Positions 1 to 10,675 of a DNA stretch of 10,675 bases are shown piece after piece. The position numbers and the translations under genes are program-made. Source of the DNA: Gammaproteobacteria bacterium (GTDB lineage: Bacteria > Pseudomonadota > Gammaproteobacteria > Pseudomonadales > Halieaceae); contig JAOUDU010000046.1 in NCBI GenBank assembly GCA_029859085.1, positions 1 to 10,675 of the forward strand, written 5' to 3'. The notes beneath the pieces are model-generated. The model had not been told where the DNA came from. It saw only the letters and a list, made by a program, of their open reading frames with translations, and searched no databases. How positions within the stretch are numbered: position 1 is the first letter of the stretch; the number at the start of each line of letters is the position of its first letter.

Positions 1-828
1 GATATGCCGGCGAAACTCCCCCGGCACCTCCGGGTCGTCCACCCGGGTCTCGCCGCCGGTCAGATCCCCGGCGGTTTTGATCACCGTCTGCAGGCGCTGG
101 TCATTGCGGGGGTGGGTGGCGTACAGCCCGTGATAGCTGCCCACCGGCCTGCCGGTGGCCTTTGCTTTAACCCGCTGGTACTGCTCCTGGTCCTTCAGCA
201 CGCCGATCACTTCCAGCAGCGCGTCCGGGTCATAGCCCGCGTTGTACATGTATTTCGCCCCGAGGCCGTCCGCCTCCAGCTCGTGCTCCCGGCCGTAGCC
301 CCGCACCAGTTCGGTGCCATACATATTGGAGGCGTCTGCGAGTTCGCCGCTGCCGGTAAGGATATAAGCCGTGGTCGCCACCACCTTGTTGGCGACGCTG
401 GCGGTCTTCTGGCGGGCGGCGTGGTTCGCCGTGACGTGGCCGATTTCGTGGGCCATCACCCCCGCCAGCTCCGCCTCGTTGTCCAGGTAGGCCAGCAGGC
501 CCCGGTTGACATAAATGAACCCACCGGGAGTGGCGAAGGCATTGATGTCCGGGCTGTCGATCACGGTGAAGGTAAAGGTATCGTTGGGGGCGTCGCTGGC
601 CCTGACCAGGCGCTGGCCCACGCTATTGATATAGGCCGCCAGCGTCGGGTCGTCGTAATAGGAGCCGTCGGCCTTCAGTTTCTGGTACATCTCGTCGCCG
701 ACCGAGACATCCCGGCCGTTGACGACCACGCTGCCGTTGCCACCGCCGGAGGTGGGTTTGTCGGCGCAACCGCCGGCCAGTGCCAGGGCGGCGAACGCTG
801 CGGCCAGCAGCGCATTGTTCCGGGACAT
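1..828 (-). CDS. M48-family zinc metalloprotease, putative lipoprotein (3' end outside window)
   Basis: This open frame runs from an ATG at 828 to the left window edge without a stop, giving 276 residues of an incomplete protein. The zinc-protease motif HEIGH is at residues 127-131. The third zinc ligand is probably E183 in the following EHELEAD motif (181-187), which matches the ExxAD pattern of peptidase family M48. A conserved THP stretch lies near 238-240. The N-terminus is a hydrophobic leader ending in LAGGC with Cys at 21, so a lipoprotein is likely, although Ala at -3 is not the best lipobox residue. A GGAGAG ribosome-binding site lies six bases before the ATG, and the preceding gene ends 13 bases upstream. 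M48 proteases of this type, such as BepA, act in the periplasm on envelope proteins. Its place at the end of this operon suggests quality control or processing of the other envelope components. The family call is firm; the substrate is unknown. Confidence 0.93.
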   Translation of the reverse strand, partial: MSRNNALLAAAFAALALAGGCADKPTSGGGNGSVVVNGRDVSVGDEMYQKLKADGSYYDDPTLAAYINSVGQRLVRASDAPNDTFTFTVIDSPDINAFATPGGFIYVNRGLLAYLDNEAELAGVMAHEIGHVTANHAARQKTASVANKVVATTAYILTGSGELADASNMYGTELVRGYGREHELEADGLGAKYMYNAGYDPDALLEVIGVLKDQEQYQRVKAKATGRPVGSYHGLYATHPRNDQRLQTVIKTAGDLTGGETRVDDPEVPGEFRRHI

Positions 829-841
829 GCTTTTCTCTCCG

Positions 842-1513
842 CTAGGAGTTGCTGGACAGGAACTGCAGCAACTGGTCGCCGATCCCGTCACAGGCCGTAC
901 CCTGCACCGGGGCGATGATGGGGATGGGTATGACCACCGCCGGCATATAGGACTGGCCGGTAGCGGTCGTGCTGATGCGCCCCACCTCCGCGTGTTCGCT
1001 GAAGTCCCAGATGGTGGCCTCGTAATTGGCATCGCTGCTCCAGGTGCCGAAGCCGAAACAGCCGCCGCCCCCCGGGCCCACCGCACAGGTCATGGAGCCG
1101 GCCGAATCCCCGCGCACGGTCGAGCCGTCCAGCCAGACCATGTACTGGGTATTCATCGCTGCCAGGCGCTTGGCCACCACCGGCTGGTTCTGCATCAGGC
1201 GCTCGAGGTCGGCGATCTGCAGCGGTGCGGTGCGGGGCTCGAACCAGGGATAGAACTCATTGACGAATTCCAGCTCGCCGATCACATGTATGGTCTTGTC
1301 GCCGCTGGCGATGTGGTCGCCCACGCATTCGACGAAATCCGGCTCCGTGTCGTAGTCGCTGGCGTGGCGCCTGCCCAGTATCACCACGGTGGCATTGCCG
1401 ATGCCGTGCTCGGGCTTGTTGAAAACCATCTGGTCCACGGTTGAGGTGACACAGCCCGAAACCAGGCAGGTCACCGCGCCCAGCAGCAGGGCGCGAAGCG
1501 CAGCAGTTATCAT
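842..1513 (-). CDS. Putative outer-membrane lipoprotein of unknown function
   Basis: The protein is 223 residues long from the ATG at 1513. An in-frame ATG at 1555 would add 14 residues, but the 1513 start is preceded by GGGAGG with a seven-base spacer and puts a normal signal peptide at the very N-terminus. The leader ends in the lipobox LVSGC, so Cys21 would be lipidated; the next residue is Val, not Asp, which favours the outer membrane. The start codon overlaps the stop of the upstream lipoprotein gene as ATGA, a sign of translational coupling. The mature part starts with a strand-like VVILGRR segment, has a glycine-rich loop flanked by two cysteines (CAVGPGGGGC), which could form a disulfide, and ends in hydrophobic, proline-rich segments. 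I do not recognise the family. The context makes it a partner of the envelope complex encoded upstream. Confidence 0.85.
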   Translation of the reverse strand: MITAALRALLLGAVTCLVSGCVTSTVDQMVFNKPEHGIGNATVVILGRRHASDYDTEPDFVECVGDHIASGDKTIHVIGELEFVNEFYPWFEPRTAPLQIADLERLMQNQPVVAKRLAAMNTQYMVWLDGSTVRGDSAGSMTCAVGPGGGGCFGFGTWSSDANYEATIWDFSEHAEVGRISTTATGQSYMPAVVIPIPIIAPVQGTACDGIGDQLLQFLSSNS

Positions 1514-2190
1514 AAAGTCGCCTCCCGATTGGTATTGAGCATCTCGTCCAGCCACGCCTGCACTCCCGGCACCCGGGTGAAGTTGCTGGCGAAATTGGCA
1601 CCGGCATCCCGCAATGTCATCACCGCCGCCAGGTTGACCGCGGCCTGGTCGCTCTGCAGGAACGCGGTCGGTGTCTTGCCGTAGGCCGGCATGGTCCAGT
1701 CGGCGATGGGTGTGCCACCGGTGGTCACCAGCTGCAGGTGGTAGCGGATCCAGACTTCATAGACCTTGACGTTGGTCTGGGTCGGCAGCGCGTATTGCAA
1801 TTCCGCCACCTCCGGGATGAACACCGCGTCGACCGAAGGGTTCATCTGGCCGGGGCCGGGCCGCCCGGCCATGGGGACGACCCGGGTAAACATGCCGGCC
1901 AGCAGGGTATTCCACATCTGTACCTGGGCCTGCCCGGTTTTTACCAGCCAGCTGGACTCCGTCCTGCTCTTGGCCTCGTCGAAGAATTCGTGATTGGTGA
2001 ATTCCGGGGAGTACCAAACGCCGATGGTCAGCGGCAGTTTTTCCATGGTCGGCGCGGGAAAGTCACCCTTGACCACCACTTCCGCCGGGCCGCATCCCGC
2101 CAGCAGGGCCAGCAGGAAGCTTCCCGCCAGCCAGAGCAGGCGGCCGAAATCAGGGGCGGATGCCGTTGAGCCCGACAAAAGTGCCTCCAT
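1510..2190 (-). CDS. Putative lipoprotein of unknown function (start probably TTG at 2178)
   Basis: The protein has 226 residues if the ATG at 2190 is used, or 222 from a TTG at 2178. I prefer the TTG: GGAGG (2188-2184) lies five bases before it, whereas the ATG has no site at a normal distance. Either start gives a short polar region, a hydrophobic segment and the lipobox LAGC (Cys33 counted from the ATG), followed by Gly, so an outer-membrane lipoprotein is likely. The mature part looks like a mixed alpha/beta domain, with a strand LPLTIGVWYS, a helix around QVQMWNTLLAGMF, and strands VDAVFIPEV and VYEVWIRYHLQLV. This is loosely reminiscent of small accessory lipoproteins such as LpoB or PelC, but I cannot assign a family. 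The gene overlaps the end of the vWA gene by 29 to 41 bases and shares an ATGA stop/start with the next lipoprotein gene. Confidence 0.85.
   Translation of the reverse strand: MEALLSGSTASAPDFGRLLWLAGSFLLALLAGCGPAEVVVKGDFPAPTMEKLPLTIGVWYSPEFTNHEFFDEAKSRTESSWLVKTGQAQVQMWNTLLAGMFTRVVPMAGRPGPGQMNPSVDAVFIPEVAELQYALPTQTNVKVYEVWIRYHLQLVTTGGTPIADWTMPAYGKTPTAFLQSDQAAVNLAAVMTLRDAGANFASNFTRVPGVQAWLDEMLNTNREATL
1521..1526 (-). promoter_or_regulatory. Ribosome-binding site that decides the ATG start at 1513
   Basis: GGGAGG with a seven-base spacer precedes the ATG at 1513. It places the lipoprotein signal peptide at the true N-terminus and rules against the longer frame from 1555. The ATG overlaps the upstream TGA as ATGA. 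Confidence 0.75.
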
Positions 2191-3157
2191 TGCGATAGGT
2201 CAGCTCCCGCAACAATGCGGCGAAGCGGATGATGTTGGGGTGCTGTTTATTCGGTTCCATGACGAAATATACAGGAAATGCGACCGCATGGATGCGTACC
2301 AGGCGCTCGCCATTTTCGTTGGACTGGTTGAGGCGGTCTACCGTGTCGATCACCCGGCCGATGGAGTCGCCGCTGAAATCGTCCCCGAACACATAGATAC
2401 TGATTTTCTGGCCCGGCTTGTGGAAGGCGCGGATGGCGGCCTCGATCCCCTCCACCGGGCTGGAGTTACTGAACACGGCCCAGTTGCGCAGGTTCTCGAT
2501 GATGACCTTCCTGCGCCCGGGAGTGTCCGGTATCCACTGGCCGCGGTAGCGGCTGAACATATAGGTGCCCATGTCGTTCATCACCTGGATGCCCTTGACC
2601 GTGGGGTAGATACTGAGGGTGGCCTGCAGCTCCTCCAGCATCCGCTCCCAGGCGTAGGAGAACATCGAGCCGGAGGTGTCGATCACGAAGATGATGTACT
2701 CGCTGTCTACCGGGATGCCCCCGATCAGGTTGTTCTGCGACTTGTGCTGGGAGCCCAGCAGGCGCTTCTGTTCCTCCGACAGTTTTTGCCTGGCGATGGC
2801 CAGCTGCTCGCTCACCACGTCGTTGGTATTGGTCTGCACCTGGATACTGTCGTAGCGGGAGCGGGCGCTGGCCAGCTGCCCTCGCAGGATGGCGATGCGC
2901 TCCTGGAATTTCGACAGCTGTTCCTGCTTGGCGTTGAGGTCGCGGTTCAGTACCCGGCTCTCGCCGCGCAGCTCAAACAGCTGTTCCTGCAGCGCGGCGA
3001 TCACACCCTTCAGGTTGGTGGTGGCGGCTTCGATGATCTGTGGCTGGACCGTCTTGGTGATCATCAACAGCAGGATGATCGCGCCGAAACCGCAGCAGAT
3101 CACGTCGAGGAAGGACAGGGAGAATTCCGCCGTTGTCCGTACCTTGCGCCGCGCCAT
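2150..3157 (-). CDS. TolR/MotB-like membrane protein with coiled coil and vWA domain (second paralogue)
   Basis: The protein is 335 residues long. Residues 12-34 form one membrane segment in the pattern LSFLDVICCGFGAIILL. Asp18 sits where TolR, ExbD and MotB carry their proton-relaying aspartate. Residues 45-135 are a heptad-rich coiled coil. A vWA domain follows from about 152 to 330, with MIDAS motif DTSGS at 160-164. The third MIDAS position, usually Thr, appears to be Ser in a NSSP segment (231-234), and an acidic pair is found at 259-260 (FGDDF). There is no OmpA-like or other peptidoglycan-binding domain at the C-terminus. The start ATG overlaps the upstream stop by one base (TGATG), and AAGGA lies nine bases before it. 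It shares its N-terminus and architecture with the adjacent gene, so the two probably pair within one complex beside the ExbB-like channel. The domain call is firm; the role is inferred. Confidence 0.93.
   Translation of the reverse strand: MARRKVRTTAEFSLSFLDVICCGFGAIILLLMITKTVQPQIIEAATTNLKGVIAALQEQLFELRGESRVLNRDLNAKQEQLSKFQERIAILRGQLASARSRYDSIQVQTNTNDVVSEQLAIARQKLSEEQKRLLGSQHKSQNNLIGGIPVDSEYIIFVIDTSGSMFSYAWERMLEELQATLSIYPTVKGIQVMNDMGTYMFSRYRGQWIPDTPGRRKVIIENLRNWAVFSNSSPVEGIEAAIRAFHKPGQKISIYVFGDDFSGDSIGRVIDTVDRLNQSNENGERLVRIHAVAFPVYFVMEPNKQHPNIIRFAALLRELTYRNGGTFVGLNGIRP
2184..2188 (-). promoter_or_regulatory. Ribosome-binding site that favours the TTG start at 2178
   Basis: GGAGG lies five bases before TTG and overlaps the alternative ATG at 2190, which cannot use it. 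This argues that the lipoprotein begins at the TTG, inside the last codons of the vWA gene. Confidence 0.6.
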
Positions 3158-4248
3158 CAGGGCCAGTCCTTTGAGGGAGCCATGAAGGAGCCCCCGCTGA
3201 CCACTGCCAGCTGCCAGAATTCCGAGGCAGCCAGCGGGTCGCCCTCCATGGGCCCGAGGATGATATTCACCGGCACATTGCGCGGCAGCCTGCGCACCGC
3301 CTCACGGTACAGGCGCTGGCGTTCGTCGCCACTGACCTTGTTGCCCCGGGGCGGGCTGGCGCCCTGGGTGGGCAGGCCATCGGTGATCAGGAAGATATTA
3401 TCCGGCACCGGCGACAGTTGCTGCAGGCTGGCGAAGGCGTTTTCCAGGCTGGTGCCGCCGGAGGGTACGATCTTGCGCAACTGCGCCGAGAGCTTTTCCA
3501 GCTGGGGCTGGTCGGCGACATCGAGCCACTTGCCCGCGGTATTTTCCAGCGCCGGCGCCGCCTTGGTATTGAAGGTGATCACCTGGTACTTGCTGCCCGG
3601 TGGCAACTGGGCGGTGAGCCAGTCCACGGTGGACAGGGCCCGGGTCCACTTGTCCGCCTTGCGCTGGGTGGCCGGGTCCATGTTGCGCAGGCGGATGATG
3701 TTGACCAGTTTGTCCGCGAGCATACTCGAGGAAATGTCGAGCAGGATGGCGATGTTGCGCCCCCCGAGGTTGAGGCCGGTCAGGTACTGCCGGTTGCCCT
3801 CGCCGACGAAGGTGCGGGCGCTGTTGCCACTGTCTTTCTCCGCGGACTGGCGCAGCTTTTTCACCTCCTCTTCCAGCGAGCGGATCTCGGCCTTGAGGGA
3901 CTCGATGTCGGTGCGCTCGGTAAAGCCGTCTTTTTTCAGGCCGGCGATCATGGCCTCGTAATTGGCGATATCGTCGGTGATCCGGGTGGCCTGGCCCTGG
4001 GCCTCCACCGTCTGCTCATCGACCTCCGACAGGGTGTTGTGCAGCTTGACCAGGCCCGCCTGGCCGTCCCTGACATCCTCCTCCAGCATGCTGACTTCCG
4101 ACAGCAGGTCGCGGTTGAGGTCCTTGCTCTCGGTCTTGATCGAGTGGTCGATCACCAGGAACACCAGTATCACCGCCCCGAAGCCGCAGGACATGATGTC
4201 CAGGAAGCTGAGGTTGAACGTGGTGAACTCGCGTTTTTTTCTCGCCAT
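3157..4248 (-). CDS. TolR/MotB-like membrane protein with coiled coil and vWA domain (first paralogue)
   Basis: The protein is 363 residues long. A basic start (MARKKREF) leads into a membrane segment at 11-34 with the motif LSFLDIMSCGFGAVIL; Asp17 is the candidate proton-path residue. Residues 40-135 are predicted coiled coil. A linker leads to a vWA domain at about 163-355 with a complete metal-ion site: DISSS at 171-175, Thr266 in SGGTS, and Asp290 in LITDG. vWA domains bind a divalent metal and, through it, an acidic residue of a protein partner. By analogy with TolR and MotB, the vWA part would be periplasmic. The gene follows the actin-like gene by 12 bases with only a weak ribosome-binding site (GAGAG), so coupled translation is possible. 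Compared with its neighbour it keeps the canonical MIDAS Thr, so this paralogue is the better candidate for metal-dependent ligand binding. Confidence 0.94.
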   Translation of the reverse strand: MARKKREFTTFNLSFLDIMSCGFGAVILVFLVIDHSIKTESKDLNRDLLSEVSMLEEDVRDGQAGLVKLHNTLSEVDEQTVEAQGQATRITDDIANYEAMIAGLKKDGFTERTDIESLKAEIRSLEEEVKKLRQSAEKDSGNSARTFVGEGNRQYLTGLNLGGRNIAILLDISSSMLADKLVNIIRLRNMDPATQRKADKWTRALSTVDWLTAQLPPGSKYQVITFNTKAAPALENTAGKWLDVADQPQLEKLSAQLRKIVPSGGTSLENAFASLQQLSPVPDNIFLITDGLPTQGASPPRGNKVSGDERQRLYREAVRRLPRNVPVNIILGPMEGDPLAASEFWQLAVVSGGSFMAPSKDWP

Positions 4249-4260
4249 GGCTCTCGGTCG

Positions 4261-5526
4261 CTAGGACGCGACCTCGATCAGTAACAGGTCCGGGCCGGTG
4301 CCGGCGCGAATGGTATCGCCGCCACCCAGCACCTGGTCGGGCTGGCAGCTGGAACCGTTGACCAACAGCCCCGCGGTGGCGCCCCGCAAGCGCCAGCCCG
4401 CGGCGCTGTGCTCGAGATGCCAGCCCTGGCCGAGAGTGCTGCCGGCCGCCGCCAGCGGCAGGGCGCGGTGACCCTGCAGCAGGTGGGTCGCAGCCGGGCG
4501 GGGCGGGGTTGCCGCGACGGCGGAAACGGTTGCAGCGGGAGCGGCGACCGGCCCGGGCGCCAGCGCGGGCAGGGCGGTGACGAAGCTCAGGGCCCGCTCC
4601 CGCTGCACCAGTTGCTCCAGGTGGTGTTCCAGGGCCGTGCGCACGCAGTCCGCCGCGAGCACCTCGAAGCCGGGCAGCTGCGCCGCCAGCCCCGGCAGCA
4701 GGCCCGCCACCGGGTCGGCGATCACCCGGTCTCCGGGTTGCGCTGCGCCAATGGCCTCCCGCGCGCTGCTGAACAGGCGCTGGCCAGCCGCGAGCAGCTC
4801 GCCGCGGTTGATCCCGGCGCGGTAGCCGCTGACCTCGATATTGGTCTCATTGTCGCGGCCCAGCGCGCGCAGGGCGTCGGGCAGCGCGTCGTACAGCTGT
4901 TGTTCGGTGATCGCCTTGCGGCGCGGGTCGAAACGGGTCTGGCGGATAAATGCGGTCGCTATGATCTCCACCAGTTTCTCCTGCAACTGCAGCAGGCCGG
5001 CGCCGGGCAGTGGCAGGGAGCGCACCAGTTCGACCTTGCCATCGCGCTGGGCCAGTTCACTGATGACCGCCTGGTGCAGCTGGATCTCCAGGTGGAACAG
5101 GCGCCCGGCGGCGCCGTGCAGGCTGCCCAGGGCGACACTGCGATGCACCAGCCCGACCGCGGCGAAGGGGCACTGCTGCACAATGCCCAGCAGCAGCGCC
5201 AGCTGGTCCCGCTGCATGCTGCCGGACACGGCCATCAGCACCTCCGCGGGCTGCCCTCCCTCCCGGTGCAGCTCCTTGAGCTGGGCGTGGACCAGGTCGC
5301 CGGTGTGGCGGGCGGGGCCCAGGGCCGGCTGCAGGGTTTCAGTGCTCAGCTGCCACCAGTAGCGGGTGTTGATATCCCGGGGCTGCAGGCGGGCGGCGGC
5401 CCGGGCGGGGTTGCCGAAGCGGTATTGCTGGTCTACCAGCAGGGCGTAACCGGGGCTCTGCAGGTGGGTGCTGCCGTGCCACAGCTGCAGGTTGCTGTCA
5501 TTGATGTCGAGCAGTGCGATTGCCAT
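4261..5526 (-). CDS. Degenerate actin/Hsp70-like protein with C-terminal FHA-like domain
   Basis: The protein is 421 residues long, without signal peptide or membrane segment, so it is probably cytoplasmic. Residues 1-315 look like an actin/Hsp70-fold domain: an opening ALLDINDSNLQLW hairpin, a FGNPARAAARLQPR segment (38-51), a VLMAVSG strand, and a second LFHLEIQL hairpin near 143-150. The glycine and threonine residues of true Hsp70 phosphate loops are missing, so ATP hydrolysis is doubtful. An Ala/Pro linker (318-346) joins it to an FHA-like domain (347-420) ending in LLVNG ... GGGDTIRAG ... LLLIEV. That domain lacks the Arg and Ser/His residues that read phosphothreonine, so phosphopeptide binding is uncertain. 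The gene starts 13 bases after the ExbB-like gene, with AAGG nine bases before the ATG. A cytoplasmic scaffold or regulator of the channel complex is my inference. The fold calls rest on pattern reading only. Confidence 0.85.
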   Translation of the reverse strand: MAIALLDINDSNLQLWHGSTHLQSPGYALLVDQQYRFGNPARAAARLQPRDINTRYWWQLSTETLQPALGPARHTGDLVHAQLKELHREGGQPAEVLMAVSGSMQRDQLALLLGIVQQCPFAAVGLVHRSVALGSLHGAAGRLFHLEIQLHQAVISELAQRDGKVELVRSLPLPGAGLLQLQEKLVEIIATAFIRQTRFDPRRKAITEQQLYDALPDALRALGRDNETNIEVSGYRAGINRGELLAAGQRLFSSAREAIGAAQPGDRVIADPVAGLLPGLAAQLPGFEVLAADCVRTALEHHLEQLVQRERALSFVTALPALAPGPVAAPAATVSAVAATPPRPAATHLLQGHRALPLAAAGSTLGQGWHLEHSAAGWRLRGATAGLLVNGSSCQPDQVLGGGDTIRAGTGPDLLLIEVAS

Positions 5527-5539
5527 CTGGAGGGGCCTT

Positions 5540-6337
5540 TTAATGGACTACCAGGAAGCGCAGCAGGCGTTTGTCGCAGTAGCGCTGGCAGTCCAGCACC
5601 AGGCGCTCCTGGGTCAGCTGCAGCTGGTGCAGGCAGAACATGAGGACGATGCTCAGCACCAGCGCCACGAAGGTACTGTTGAACGCGACGCCCAGGCTCA
5701 CCGTCACGCCGGATATGTCGCCCTCCACCGCCTTGTACGCCTGCCCGAGCGCGTCGCCGATACCGCGCACGGTGCCGATAAACCCGATAGAGGGGATGGC
5801 CCAGGCGATATAGCGCACCATGGACAGCTCCGAGTCCAGCCGGTCCGACTCGACCTCGCAGCTCTCCTTGATAGTGTCGGATACCGCCTGGATGCTGCAG
5901 GTGGTGGCGAAGCGCTGCAGCGCCGACAGCAGGGTGCGGGGCAGCAGGTAGTCCTGCTCCCGCTCCGGCAGCGCCTCCAGCGAGCGGCTGTACTCCCGGG
6001 CGTCCTCGGGCAACACGCTGGTGCCCTCGGGGATGTCCAGCAGGCGGCGGTCCAGCAACTGCTGCTCGTGCACGCCGCGGCGGGCCTTGTAGAACATGAT
6101 GGCCAGGGCCCAGATCAGCAGGATAAAACAGGATTCCTGCTCGTAGTCCTTGAGGACCACGGCCATGCTGCGTTCCGGCACGTACTCCGTGCCCGCCGCC
6201 TGCAGCGCCGCCTCTTTCTTGATGTGGGCGTCCGCGGCCGGGCGCACCAGCCCCACGTAGATCGTATGCACCACGATGACCGCGATCAGCAGCGCGAACA
6301 GCTGGAAGATGAATTCGGATGACAGCTTTTGCTTCAT
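5540..6337 (-). CDS. MotA/TolQ/ExbB-family proton channel subunit
   Basis: The protein is 265 residues long with four likely membrane segments: about 10-30, 68-84, 172-192 and 210-237. A large loop between the second and third segments (85-170) resembles the cytoplasmic domain of this family. The hallmark motif IPSIGFIGTVRGIGDAL (181-197) includes Thr189, matching the channel-lining Thr of TolQ and ExbB. A second Thr/Ser-containing segment, SLGVAFNSTFVALVLS (214-229), matches the next pore helix. Family members form pentamers around a TolR/ExbD/MotB dimer and turn proton flow into movement. The nearby vWA proteins have TolR-like membrane segments and are the obvious partners. TolQ and ExbB have three membrane helices, so the four seen here are closer to MotA. 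A ribosome-binding site AGGA lies seven bases before the ATG. The family is certain; the driven process is not known. Confidence 0.95.
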   Translation of the reverse strand: MKQKLSSEFIFQLFALLIAVIVVHTIYVGLVRPAADAHIKKEAALQAAGTEYVPERSMAVVLKDYEQESCFILLIWALAIMFYKARRGVHEQQLLDRRLLDIPEGTSVLPEDAREYSRSLEALPEREQDYLLPRTLLSALQRFATTCSIQAVSDTIKESCEVESDRLDSELSMVRYIAWAIPSIGFIGTVRGIGDALGQAYKAVEGDISGVTVSLGVAFNSTFVALVLSIVLMFCLHQLQLTQERLVLDCQRYCDKRLLRFLVVH

Positions 6338-6346
6338 GGTTAGATC

Positions 6347-6619
6347 CTATATGTCTACCGGGAAGGAGACAGGCAGGTCCTCGGAAATTTCTTCCGAGGC
6401 CCGATAGTCCGATGGTGACCTGCCGGCTTTCGCCGGTGTGCCGCTGGCGGTATCACCGCTGGGGGCGCTTTTCCCGGGGGCGGCAGGCGCTTGCCCCTTC
6501 GCGGGCTGCTGGCCGGAGGGTGCAGCCCCGGCCTCATCCGCTGCCGGTTGCGCCAGTGCGACGCCCGCGGCCAGCAACAGGGCCGCCACGGCCGGGGCCA
6601 GGATTCTCGTCCCGATCAT
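6347..6619 (-). CDS. Small secreted Ala/Pro-rich protein of unknown function
   Basis: The protein is 90 residues long. It starts with a classical signal peptide ending near residue 23 (GVALA before QPAADE), so export to the periplasm is likely. Residues 24-67 are low complexity, rich in Ala, Pro, Gly and Ser, and look disordered. The last 23 residues are different: polar and acidic, then a short hydrophobic end (DLPVSFPVDI). Such a tail looks like a peptide that docks on a partner. The gene has a proper ribosome-binding site (GGAG, six bases before the ATG) and sits between the FGE-like gene (3-base gap) and the channel gene (9-base gap), so I accept it as real despite its size. I do not recognise a family. 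A small periplasmic adaptor of the channel or vWA proteins is a guess from position. Confidence 0.75.
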   Translation of the reverse strand: MIGTRILAPAVAALLLAAGVALAQPAADEAGAAPSGQQPAKGQAPAAPGKSAPSGDTASGTPAKAGRSPSDYRASEEISEDLPVSFPVDI

Positions 6620-6622
6620 TTG

Positions 6623-8695
6623 TCACTCCGCATAGCGCGCCAACCGGAATCCTACGTCATCGCGCCCCGCTTGCCCATAATCGCGGTAAGACAGTCGCAA
6701 TTCGGCGATTTTACTGTGGCTCCAGCTGGCGCCGCGAATCACGTAGTTGTCGCCGCTCTGGCCACCCAGGGGGTCCACTTCCGTGGCCCCGTTGGCGGAG
6801 GGGATGCTGTAGACGTCGTGCACCCACTCCGAGACGTTGCCGCCGATGTCGAAAAGCCGGTTCTGGTTGGGTTTGTAGGAACCCACCGGGGCGCTCACCA
6901 CGTTGCCATCGGTGTAGCTGCCCAGCGCCCGGCCGGTGACGTAGGCCGAGCTGTTGTCCGCGTAGTTTTCCAGCGAGTTCGCAGGTGGCGGGAAGGCGTC
7001 GCCCCAGGGGAACTTGAGCAGGGCGGTGCCGTTGGCGCGGGCGGCCCACGCCCATTCCGCCTCGCTGGGCAGGCGGTAGCCGGTGGCGGCGGGGTTATAG
7101 CCGGTGATGATGCCGTTGTTCTCCTTGTAGAACAGGGGCAACCCCTCGCGCTTGCTCAGCCAGTTGCAGAAGGCGGCGGCCTGTTGCCAGCTCACCTGGA
7201 CTGCGGGTTGCTGGTCCCGGTTGAGGCTGTTGCCGTCGACCTGGCCGGAGTTGTGGCCGCTGTCGAACTGGCGGAACTGGGCGTTGGTCACTTCTGTGGT
7301 CTGCAGGTAGAAAGTCCGGTGCAGGGAGACCGGGTGCATCACCTCGTTGGCGCGGCGCCCGGGTTCCCGGCGCGAAGCGCCCATCGTGAAGTCCGCCAGC
7401 GGCGAATCCGCGGGAGAGAACAGCAGCAGGGTCTGCCCCAGGGCGGTGGTGAGTTCCGGCTTGATGCTGGCCTGGCGGGTCTCCTGGGCAGTCAGCAGTT
7501 TCGCCTCCACCAGTTGTTGCAGGCCCGGGCGCGGGGTGACCCGGTGGCGCTGGGTGGCATAACCGGGCAGGCTGACTTCCACCGAGTGCTCAAACGCCGG
7601 CAGCGACAGGGTTTGGCTACCCGTGCCCCGGACCTTGCCATCCACCTTCAGCACGGCATTGGCGGGGCTGATATTGAAACGCACCTCCCCGAGCTGGGCG
7701 GCGAGAGTCACGGTCTGGCTGTCGTGCCCGGCGGCGGGCAGCTGCACGGTGCCGGTATGGCGCCGGTAGCCGGGCTTGAACACCGCGAGCCGGTGGGCCT
7801 TGCCCGGGCTCAGCTCCAGGGTGAGGGGCGTCTGGCCGTGGAACTCGCCGTCGAGGGTCACGTTGGCCCCGCTGGGCACACTGCCCAGTTCCAGCACGCC
7901 CGCGGCGGGCTGCAGCACGATGGTTTCCAGTTGCAGGGGCTGGCCCGGCGTGATGGCCAGCGCCTGCTGGGCATCGGCGTACGCCGGCAGCTGCAGGATC
8001 AGTTGTCGCTCGCCCCCCATCAGTTGCAGCGTTGCCGGGGTGGTGCCCAGCGCCTCGCCGTCCACCAGGATGCTGGCGCCGGCGGGCTTGCTGTCGACGC
8101 TGACGTCAGCCCAGCCCGGCGCCAGCTCGAGGCTGAGCTGCTGGCGGATGTTGCGGCCGGTGACGTCCAGTTCCTGCGTCTGCGGCAGGTAGCGCTCTGC
8201 CGCGACCGCAACGGTATGTTTGCCCGCCTCCACAGGCAGATCCTGCAGCGGGGTGTGGCCGGCGTCCTGGCCATCGATCTGTACGCTCGCCCCCGGGGGA
8301 GTGCTGTCGATGCTCACCAGGCCCGGCAGTAATTGCAGCTCCAGCTGCAGGCTCTGGCTGTCGCGATCATCGACCGTGACGGAGGTCTCCAGCGGGTGGT
8401 AGCCCTCGGCGCTGGCGTGCACTGTGTAGGTGCCCGGTCGCAGCAGGTAGCGGTTGCCGAACGGCAGTGCGATACCGTCAAGGGAGACCTGCGCCGGCGT
8501 TGCCGCGACCACCACCACCTGCAGCGAGCGGGCGCTCAGCAGGAACAGCATCACCAGGCCGAAGACCAGGGCGCAGGCGGCCAACAGCCAGCGGCCGGTA
8601 TGCACCTGCCGCGGCGGCTTTTGCTCCGCGCTGCCCAGTGGCTGGAACGCGCTGGGTTCGATGGCGCCGGCGGGCCCGCTGTCCCGGATTGCCAC
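6623..8695 (-). CDS. Membrane-anchored PEGA-repeat protein with FGE/SUMF1-like domain lacking catalytic cysteines
   Basis: The protein is 690 residues long. The start is a GTG at 8695 that overlaps the upstream stop by one base (TAGTG) and has GGAGG seven bases before it. A polar N-terminus is followed by one membrane segment (35-54). Residues 59-400 hold about five PEGA-like beta repeats with the pattern PxGAxVxxDGxxxGxTPL and a closing GY or similar; the clearest start near 131, 203 and 273. Residues 420-688 are an FGE/SUMF1 (formylglycine-generating enzyme sulfatase) domain: TEVTNAQF, VSWQQAAAFCNWLS, YRLPSEAEWAWAA, GGNVSEW, VIRGASWSH and VGFRLAR. In active FGE, RGGS is followed by two catalytic cysteines; here those positions read Ser659 and Ala664, so formylglycine formation is not expected. 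The domain more likely binds a protein or glycan. The PEGA and FGE-like parts are probably periplasmic. The gene follows a TPR/PEGA protein gene and belongs to the same operon. Confidence 0.93.
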   Translation of the reverse strand: MAIRDSGPAGAIEPSAFQPLGSAEQKPPRQVHTGRWLLAACALVFGLVMLFLLSARSLQVVVVAATPAQVSLDGIALPFGNRYLLRPGTYTVHASAEGYHPLETSVTVDDRDSQSLQLELQLLPGLVSIDSTPPGASVQIDGQDAGHTPLQDLPVEAGKHTVAVAAERYLPQTQELDVTGRNIRQQLSLELAPGWADVSVDSKPAGASILVDGEALGTTPATLQLMGGERQLILQLPAYADAQQALAITPGQPLQLETIVLQPAAGVLELGSVPSGANVTLDGEFHGQTPLTLELSPGKAHRLAVFKPGYRRHTGTVQLPAAGHDSQTVTLAAQLGEVRFNISPANAVLKVDGKVRGTGSQTLSLPAFEHSVEVSLPGYATQRHRVTPRPGLQQLVEAKLLTAQETRQASIKPELTTALGQTLLLFSPADSPLADFTMGASRREPGRRANEVMHPVSLHRTFYLQTTEVTNAQFRQFDSGHNSGQVDGNSLNRDQQPAVQVSWQQAAAFCNWLSKREGLPLFYKENNGIITGYNPAATGYRLPSEAEWAWAARANGTALLKFPWGDAFPPPANSLENYADNSSAYVTGRALGSYTDGNVVSAPVGSYKPNQNRLFDIGGNVSEWVHDVYSIPSANGATEVDPLGGQSGDNYVIRGASWSHSKIAELRLSYRDYGQAGRDDVGFRLARYAE

Positions 8696-10245
8696 TAGAT
8701 TGCCTCCGTGCAGGCGATGGTGAGGGCCGGCGGTGGCTTGTCGGGTGTCACCGTGAAATCCAGCCGCACGTCGCGGTAGCCGACGCGGCTGCCGACCGCG
8801 GTATAGGTGCCGGGCCTGAGGCTCAGCTCGCGCTGGTCGAACTTGCCCAGCTTGGCCACCTTGTAAACCACTACCTCGGTCTGCTGGTCGGAGCGCAGGG
8901 CGACCGTGATCGGGGTGTTCGCCTGTTGCAGCAGCTGTTCCAGCTGGCTGATCTGCCGCTCCAGTACCGGGCCGCGGGGGCTGATCTTGCGCGCCATTTG
9001 CAGCATCTGCTCCGCCGCCTGGGCCACCGCCACGTCCCCCAGGCGCAGGGGGTCAGCGATCGCGGCGCGAAACTGCTTGTCCAGCCGCGCCCGGTTGCGG
9101 CTGCGCTCGAGTCCCTCGCGGGCGAACAGCACGTTGGGATCGATTTTCTGCGCCTGCTCGTAGGCGCCGACCGCCTGCTGCCACTGCTCCGCCTGTTCGC
9201 CCCGGGAGCCGTCGGCCTGCAGGCTGGCCAGGCGATGGGCGGTGGCGGCGGTCTCCACTTCCTGCAGGGCGCTGGCCGCCTCGCTGGAGCCGGACTGCAG
9301 CGCCGCCGCCTGGCGGAACGCCTTGCGGGCGGTGTCGAACTGGTTGGCGTCGAGGGCCGCGTAGCCGGCGCTCATCGCCTCGTTGAACTGCTGGTCCCGG
9401 TAGGCGGCGGTGACGCGCGCCAGTTCGGTGCTGCTGCGCTGGTGGCGGGCGTCCAGGGCCACCGCCTGCTTCAGCAGCGCGATCGCGCCGGCCATGTCGC
9501 CGCCCCGCTCCGCGGTCGCGGCGCGCTCCAGCAGGTCCAGCAGCTGCGGCAGCGCCTCCACCCGGTGGCGCAGGGTGGCGGCCTCGGCATTGCCCGGTTC
9601 GATGGCATCCGCCTTGTCCAGGGCGGCGGTGGCCTGGGCCAGGTCGCCGTTCTCCAGCGCCTCATTGGCCAGGGCCAGCTGCCGGGCCAGTTCCGCGGGG
9701 ATGCCCGCCTCCAGCGCCTGCAACCGGGCGAGCCCCTCCTCGTAGCGGGCTTTTGCCGCCGCGTAGTCCCGGGTCCGGTACAGTTCGTCGCCGGCGGTGG
9801 CCAGGGCGGCCACGGCGGCGAACTGCTCGGCGGCCCAGGCCTTTACCCCGCGCGCCTCCAGCCCTTCCTGTACTTCCAGTAACCGGGCCAGCACGTCCTG
9901 CGCCTCCTTGCGCAGTTTTGCCGCCTGGGCATCCGACCAGGGCGATACGTCCGGCCCCGCCGGTTCCTGTGCCGCCTCGCCGGTGGCCGCGGCCGGTTGC
10001 GCGCTGCCGGCCGGGCTTGCGGGCGCCGTATCCGCTGAGGCGGGCTCGGGCCCAGGGGTGTTGACCCGGTTCGGCAGCCAGAAAATCACCAGCAGCGCCA
10101 GCAGCAGCAGGCCGCCCAGGGCCGGCAATACCCAGCCGGGCGTGCCCTCGCGGCGCTTGCCGGCGGCGGCAGCCGGCGCTGCGGCAGGCGCCGGCTGCGC
10201 CACATCAAAAGGCGTGGGCTGTAATTGCTCGTTGTGGGATGACAT
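8695..10245 (-). CDS. Single-pass membrane protein with TPR-like repeats and C-terminal PEGA-like domain
   Basis: The protein is 516 residues long. A cytoplasmic Ala/Pro-rich N-terminus (1-37) precedes one membrane segment (38-57) and a second Ala/Pro-rich linker (60-100). From about 105 to 440 it is almost entirely helical, with TPR-like units such as YAAAKARYEEGLARL, DLAQATAALDKADAIEPGN, MAGAIALLKQAVALDA, FDTARKAFRQAAAL and WQQAVGAYEQAQKIDPN. Residues 445-512 form a beta-rich end with the PEGA-type signature LRPGTYTAVGSRVGYRDV. The same type of repeat occurs in the next gene, whose start overlaps this stop by one base, so the two products probably work together. The ribosome-binding site before the ATG is weak (AAGG, 12 bases away). 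TPR repeats bind proteins, so a periplasmic scaffold is the likely role. The domain content is clear; the TPR boundaries are approximate. Confidence 0.9.
   Translation of the reverse strand: MSSHNEQLQPTPFDVAQPAPAAAPAAAAGKRREGTPGWVLPALGGLLLLALLVIFWLPNRVNTPGPEPASADTAPASPAGSAQPAAATGEAAQEPAGPDVSPWSDAQAAKLRKEAQDVLARLLEVQEGLEARGVKAWAAEQFAAVAALATAGDELYRTRDYAAAKARYEEGLARLQALEAGIPAELARQLALANEALENGDLAQATAALDKADAIEPGNAEAATLRHRVEALPQLLDLLERAATAERGGDMAGAIALLKQAVALDARHQRSSTELARVTAAYRDQQFNEAMSAGYAALDANQFDTARKAFRQAAALQSGSSEAASALQEVETAATAHRLASLQADGSRGEQAEQWQQAVGAYEQAQKIDPNVLFAREGLERSRNRARLDKQFRAAIADPLRLGDVAVAQAAEQMLQMARKISPRGPVLERQISQLEQLLQQANTPITVALRSDQQTEVVVYKVAKLGKFDQRELSLRPGTYTAVGSRVGYRDVRLDFTVTPDKPPPALTIACTEAI
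8703..8707 (-). promoter_or_regulatory. Ribosome-binding site that decides the GTG start at 8695
   Basis: GGAGG followed by a seven-base spacer leads into GTG, which overlaps the preceding TAG stop. The site lies inside the end of the TPR/PEGA gene. It supports a GTG start and coupled translation of the PEGA/FGE-like gene. Confidence 0.75.
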
Positions 10246-10294
10246 GCGGTGGTGGAGCCTTGTCGGTTTGGGAATCAGTGTGCCTGGTCAGGGG

Positions 10295-10675
10295 TCAGAG
10301 TTTACCAGTTGTAGCGTCGTTGTCTGCCGGAGGTTGCAATGCGCCCACCTCCGCCTGGTAAATATCCGCGAGCAGTTCGCGCCACTGGGCGTACTGGTCT
10401 TCAACATTGCCGTGCAGCGTGACGGTGCGATCCTCCAGCTCGATCACCTGCGGCGTGATCTCCGCCTCCAGCGACTGGCCCAGTTCCTCCAGTGCCTGCA
10501 CGTGGATCTGGGCCTCGTTGCGCTTGTCCAGGCCGCTCTTGAGCATGTAGCCGCCGCCGATGACAGCCACCTGGCCGGCCACCTGGGAAGTCGAGCTGTC
10601 CCCGGTGGTCGCCATCGCGATGCCGGCAATCAGGGCGAGACCGCCTGCGATCAGCTGGCGGGTGCTCTCGGACTG
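10295..10675 (-). CDS. C-terminal part of an unrecognised protein (5' end outside window)
   Basis: The frame is open to the right window edge, leaving 126 residues before a TGA at 10297-10295. An internal ATG at 10615 exists, but the frame continues upstream through hydrophobic, coding-like sequence (QSESTRQLIAGGLALIAGIA) and no ribosome-binding site was seen there, so I treat the gene as truncated by the window. The visible part holds two short Gly/Ala-rich hydrophobic stretches, possibly a membrane hairpin, then a mainly helical segment. A short stretch VIELEDRTVTLHGNVEDQY resembles the start of a BON-type envelope domain, but it is too short to assign. The next gene begins 49 bases downstream, so it could share the operon. 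The function is unknown. Confidence 0.75.
   Translation of the reverse strand, partial: QSESTRQLIAGGLALIAGIAMATTGDSSTSQVAGQVAVIGGGYMLKSGLDKRNEAQIHVQALEELGQSLEAEITPQVIELEDRTVTLHGNVEDQYAQWRELLADIYQAEVGALQPPADNDATTGKL

Follow-up and report, generated by a model that had tools for sequence, protein, structure and literature searches.

In the Tol-Pal system a motor in the inner membrane acts on the outer membrane, the core of the type IX secretion and gliding systems (T9SS; GldKLMN/PorKLMN), known from different taxa, also includes a motor, and in Zorya (ZorAB) a motor of the MotA/ExbB type does a job other than transport. Ring threonines on two channel helices have a role in 5:2 motors and, to our knowledge, few jobs are known for such motors when they are proton-driven. 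We analysed a 10,675-nucleotide stretch of DNA from a marine gammaproteobacterium of the family Halieaceae (GenBank assembly GCA_029859085.1, contig JAOUDU010000046.1; the window), which holds most of an operon, truncated by the contig, around a TolQ/ExbB-like channel (gene E) and two different proteins that each carry a transmembrane (TM) helix and a von Willebrand factor A (vWA) domain (G, or vWA1, and H, or vWA2). With moderate confidence, we read this operon as encoding a trans-envelope force machine, driven by the proton motive force, whose mixed vWA axle acts on outer-membrane lipoproteins.

Motors of this type have been described by Williams-Jones et al. (2025; PMC12204202), who report TolQ homologues accompanied by two different transpore-helix vWA proteins as a heterologous pair, tolR and exbD being absent, give AlphaFold 3 models and state the function to be not known. 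As far as the main text of that paper describes its second vWA family, our locus is like it in having a TolQ homologue, two different TM-vWA proteins, the helix aspartate and no TolR or ExbD nearby, the last judged by Pfam on the window contig, where the ExbD/TolR domain (PF02472) has zero matches against four elsewhere in the genome. Novelty thus does not lie in the core motor, and the term "undescribed-looking", which a first-pass annotation of this DNA had applied to the whole locus, can be kept for the wider operon at most. The main text of the paper contains none of the words PEGA, FGE, formylglycine and sulfatase, and its section 8 does not describe the lipoproteins (X2 and X3), scaffolds (B and C), Hsp70-like protein (F) or protease (K) treated below; figure 4c and the supplements lay outside this comparison, so the operon neighbours may be drawn there. 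Among the papers listed by searches of the open-licence PubMed Central literature, nothing further was recognised as describing the operon. Our addition is the conserved operon around the motor, together with the folds of its partners.

Channel threonines and helix aspartates are kept

Gene E matches the MotA_ExbB domain at 4e-14 (52.9 bits against a cut-off of 22.9); its profile found no usable match among the sequences of solved structures. The motif PSIGFIGTVRGIG and the NST of the following helix align with the threonines of ExbB/TolQ proteins of the same genome at Thr189 and Thr222, both of which are Thr at 154 of 154 loci (repeated genomes included). A motor role for ring threonines on the two channel helices is given in PMC12204202. 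In G and H the Asp of an SFLD motif aligns by eye with that of three ExbD helices from the same genome, and it is kept as Asp17 of G at 146 of 147 loci and as Asp18 of H at all 138 (repeats again included). Pfam recognises the vWA domain of G at 3.7e-6 and that of H weakly, at 0.011, and the profile of G, set against solved-structure sequences, gave chiefly coiled-coil matches and one weak vWA match (5a8j at 0.46). With both the channel threonines and the helix aspartates conserved, these three genes are best read as a proton motor that has a mixed vWA axle.

Residues of the metal ion-dependent adhesion site (MIDAS) of G are also retained in most of the 147 loci (D171 in 144, S173 in 145, S175 in 146, T266 in 134 and D290 in 140); in H, DxSxS and the later Asp are likewise retained, and Ser stands at the position of G's Thr. 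The conservation in G would suit a motility or adhesion apparatus in which the motor drags vWA heads whose MIDAS has bound a ligand on a wall or surface, and a possible gliding role is suggested in the main text of PMC12204202 for its first vWA transducer family. We nevertheless regard this alternative as improbable: G and H are predicted to be periplasmic and held in the inner membrane, no adhesin, polysaccharide or focal-adhesion genes were recognised in the operon, and minimal loci retain only envelope parts.

A defence system was considered separately and rejected: PADLOC gave no relevant match, and its weak LmuB, JetC and PbeC matches lie for the most part within the G and H coiled coils; the Zorya models (ZorA/ZorB) had no match at E<=0.01 among ten operon proteins. 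Two diverged relatives of the motor genes were seen elsewhere. At L054 (G001:C1, 8596-9072) a distant ExbB relative (34%) stands with the rest of the operon genes unmatched around it, and L208 (G147:C1) has a diverged ExbB-like gene (35%) paired with a vWA2-like one, with X3, B and C not detected.

Six core genes occur in one order

Operon genes were sought around each locus with profile hidden Markov models, and loci were counted when G and H were present with enough flank, the rest being dropped. Because the members from which the profiles were made had been found by tblastn in these very loci, detection by the profiles is not independent, and the sets of relatives and named loci share some genomes, repeats being removed for the non-redundant set of 105. 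Six genes make up the core, namely X3, B with its tetratricopeptide repeats (TPRs), the PEGA-FGE protein C, E, G and H. The first-pass annotation had said that rare co-occurrence in other genomes would speak against it; instead, of the 105 non-redundant loci with a complete six-gene core, 103 show a single gene order, which recurs within the class of the window and in one family beyond that class, and a chance neighbourhood is thereby ruled out. X3, B, C and E are present at all 31 relatives, all 56 named loci and all five loci of a phylum sample (family f226, which is not in the class, supplies four of these five), and at 16 class loci B and C are found at 16, E at 15 and X3 at 14. Of 37 genomes sampled from its own family, that of the window among them, 35 carry E, and the two that lack a match have a completeness of 66% and 83%; the match is strong in 3 of 21 genomes of the order's other families and weak in one more. 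Among 369 class genomes a strong vWA1 match was found in 31, X3 in 27 and both in 26; at E<=0.001 vWA1 rises to 42 genomes, the 11 beyond the strong 31 being partial and mostly coiled coil. The genes form one conserved unit in which the channel Thr and helix Asp are kept, which gives good grounds for the earlier idea of a single envelope machine driven by protons, though this idea is something that we infer.

Several observations weigh against so uniform a picture. X3 has no match in 5 of the 31 vWA1 genomes, the X2-like motif is lacking at 6 of the 108 loci with enough flank, no ExbB match lies near L201, L198 and apparently L126 have another gene order, and a lipobox-like motif is found in just 48 of 89 homologues of K. 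A shared operon that serves separate envelope functions, and no single machine, might also explain why F, I, J, K and X1 are absent from many loci; in the class sample they are present at 12, 7, 5, 5 and 2 of 16 loci, respectively, which is why we treat F, I, J and K as an accessory module. This explanation seems to us very unlikely, as it sits poorly with the single order of the core, with the occurrence of F solely beside vWA1 in the 369 genomes (18 carry it) and with the joint decay of the operon in G241. That genome, a single contig and the sole one with X3 only, has X3 and B in pieces (L247, G241:C1:1837000-1850500, at ~7373-10189) close to transposase-like open reading frames (ORFs) recognised by eye, with C, E, G and H all missing from the 13.5 kb read; the locus is a decayed operon copy.

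The closest named relatives, judged by the ExbB protein, are Haliea, Halioglobus and Parahaliea, and cultured carriers with names include Microbulbifer and Parahaliea strains. At E<=0.001, 4,390 database proteins match the X3 profile and a minimum of 8,000 the vWA2 profile; as the listings covered the top 120 for either profile, not all matches need belong to the system. In PLSDB vWA2 had no match among plasmids. L198 and L202, from one family, have the ExbB gene after vWA2 and not before vWA1; X3 is absent from L202 and also from L201, of that same family. L045 (G015:C18, 936-8979) is a diverged minimal copy, with X2-like, X3, B, C, E (at 37%), G and H and without F, I, J and K, in a genome that also carries a full operon (L044).

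Upstream genes and the lipoprotein X3

In relatives two further genes, X1 and X2, precede X3, and both lie beyond the window, whose gene A (10675-10295) is the C terminus of X3. The N-terminal part is on another contig of the same genome, C641, the final 150 bp of which equal the window end at 99.3%. The parts list of the first-pass annotation did not include X1, X2 or the larger part of X3, all of them off the contig. X2 is of low complexity, has a motif like LWxEYRxYK at its C-terminal end and stands directly before X3 at 102 of the 108 loci (by a loose pattern, repeated genomes included). X3 and X2, the latter usually present, are from their sequences predicted outer-membrane lipoproteins. 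The X3 profile had no usable match among the sequences of solved structures; in a model of the relative in L090 the N-terminal domain has a fold of the FlgT/PelC/CsgG/TolB-N type. X1 is rich in TPRs, with a TonB_C match in 12 of 26 members scanned (E<=1; best 2e-8), and accompanies the operon at just 2 of the 16 class loci. The genome of the window also has a solitary X3 paralogue at 3787-4953 of L246 (G000:C121), the other operon genes being unmatched on that 15-kb contig.

Scaffold proteins B and C

The TPR of B passes its cut-off narrowly (28.1 bits against 27). C carries PEGA in five stretches (3.2e-57) followed by a domain of the formylglycine-generating enzyme (FGE) family (8.3e-40), in agreement with its earlier description as FGE-like. 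We take the catalytic cysteines of the formylglycine-generating enzyme to be placed near the C terminus. No Cys was found in the C-terminal stretch (<=45 residues from the RG[AGS]S[WYF] motif) in any of 95 homologues, a count that includes repeats and excludes 29 of 124 homologues without the motif. Because these cysteines are missing, the domain reads as an inactive scaffold.

Among solved sequences the FGE domain of C is closest to PorK (1.6e-18) and to an unnamed lipoprotein relative (1.1e-18), and in NCBIfam it matches GldK at 6.8e-31 and also GldJ. Together with the likeness of the X3 fold to PelC and CsgG, this would suit a type IX-like engine for secretion or surface assembly, with E and G/H in the place of GldL/GldM, C in that of GldK/PorK, and X3/X2 as an outer-membrane ring for substrate passage. 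The GldK score of 108 bits, however, is far under the cut-off of 350, GldJ, again to the FGE domain of C, is the sole further Gld/Por match in the ten proteins scanned (all but D), with none to GldM or GldN, and no outer-membrane barrel family was matched. The FGE domain here also comes after PEGA repeats and a TM anchor, unlike in the T9SS/gliding systems. We consider such an engine unlikely, if less so than the adhesion apparatus.

Three loci without F (L194, L195 and L213) have a PEGA-FGE protein with a weakly forkhead-associated (FHA)-like N-terminal piece before the TM segment. The hint is weak, as L236 and L205, in which no such domain is seen by eye, also pass on summed scores (1.6e-5 and 6.5e-5; best single stretches 0.002 and 0.0027), and values in a wider ORF scan ran from 0.0002 to 0.015 with unrelated stretches among the matches.

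How the machine might work

A force machine on outer-membrane lipoproteins, Tol-Pal-like or ring-building, is the likeliest role. Five E subunits would surround one G-H pair that serves as the axle, and protons passing Thr189/Thr222 and the aspartates would turn or move it. The vWA heads, on coiled coils of ~100 residues and guided by B and C, could then grip and release an outer-membrane assembly built of X3, whose N-terminal fold is shared with the outer-membrane ring and export proteins FlgT, PelC and CsgG and with TolB; the MIDAS sites may make this grip dependent on metal and conformation. F, in Halieaceae and relatives, might be a sensor or regulator on the cytoplasmic side, and I, J and K might service the outer-membrane side. 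The mode of action would resemble that of Tol-Pal, or of a stator on an outer-membrane ring, and be identical to neither. Sequence and comparison give the gene content and order, the key residues and the predicted folds; stoichiometry, proton drive, ring formation, the path of the force and the process served go beyond them.

Tol-Pal shares with this proposal the inner-membrane motor working on the outer membrane, as the main text of PMC12204202 presents it, and the TolB-N-type fold. It differs in that no TolA, TolB-propeller or Pal/OmpA match was found by Pfam in the operon proteins, and that the genome has its own Tol-type set apart from the operon (TolQ-, TolR- and TolB_N-like, on C703); further ExbB/ExbD sets are on C372, C143 and C228. 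The Ton system (ExbB-ExbD-TonB) has an ExbB-type channel with the same threonines, and X1 has TonB_C matches, but the contig is without an ExbD domain and X1 is TPR-rich and seldom with the operon. More tentatively, and with more doubt than conviction, we suggest a machine class distinct from Tol, Ton, Mot, Gld/Por and Agl, in which a mixed vWA axle in a TolQ-like pentamer would work a lipoprotein ring of FlgT/PelC/TolB-N fold through a scaffold of TPRs and PEGA/dead FGE, under a dead Hsp70-like/FHA regulator in the cytoplasm. A motor without a known function now has a defined six-gene core, X2 usually being the seventh, with testable partners at both membranes, and these genes are the first concrete handle on the possible job of a motor type noted in print in 2025.

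Operon layout and accessory genes

The window is a complete contig (C342) from a genome of 771 contigs. As first annotated, its eleven genes lie on one strand, and neighbours overlap or are at most 49 bp apart, the widest gap being 10246-10294; they are transcribed in the order from A to K (Table 1). Proteins A-J (n=10) were scanned for Pfam domains and K in NCBIfam only, and the start of K at 828 was picked by eye. The analysis bears out the ExbB-like channel, the two vWA proteins with ExbD-like helices, the PEGA-FGE protein, the lipoproteins and the M48 protease named in the first-pass annotation. D is common and not universal, occurring at 30 of 31 relatives, 56 of 56 named, 13 of 16 class and 1 of 5 phylum-sample loci.

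Table 1. Genes of the window in order of transcription
Gene	Position	Strand	Description
A	10295..10675	-	C-terminal 126 aa of X3, ~400-aa predicted outer-membrane lipoprotein; core gene
B	8695..10245	-	516 aa; TPRs and a C-terminal beta domain, with a single TM segment at the N terminus (by eye); core gene
C	6623..8695	-	690 aa; N-terminal TM segment (by eye), five PEGA stretches, FGE-like domain; core gene
D	6347..6619	-	90 aa; start resembles signal peptide, middle low-complexity (both by eye)
E	5540..6337	-	265-aa TolQ/ExbB-like channel; core gene
F	4261..5526	-	421 aa; Hsp70-type nucleotide-binding domain fold (residues 1-310), probable FHA-like C terminus; accessory
G (vWA1)	3157..4248	-	ExbD-like TM helix, coiled coil, vWA domain; core gene
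H (vWA2)	2150..3157	-	ExbD-like TM helix, coiled coil, vWA domain (weak by Pfam); core gene
I	1510..2190	-	226-aa predicted lipoprotein; accessory
J	842..1555	-	predicted lipoprotein, likely start 1516; accessory
K	1..828	-	M48 metalloprotease, BepA-like; C terminus lost at contig end; accessory

The description of F as actin-like stands in that the fold belongs to the Actin/Hsp70 superfamily. The top structural matches are, however, all Hsp70s, the nucleotide motifs are degenerate and the C terminus is probably FHA-like. In 59 sequences DxG is mostly replaced by DxND and DxGGG by [ED]xQLHQ, and of the adenosine motif only LPG is retained, where the definitions of the phosphate-1/2 and adenosine motifs, and where they fall in F, are our assumption. 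No TM segment was seen in F.

For I and J the profiles had no usable match among sequences of solved structures; Cys33 of I is invariant in A6 and the lipobox Cys of J in A7. K has a lipobox-like Cys close to its start and resembles BepA in NCBIfam (136 bits, under a cut-off of 570), and a full-length relative of K in L041 matches Pfam Peptidase_M48 at 5.3e-36.
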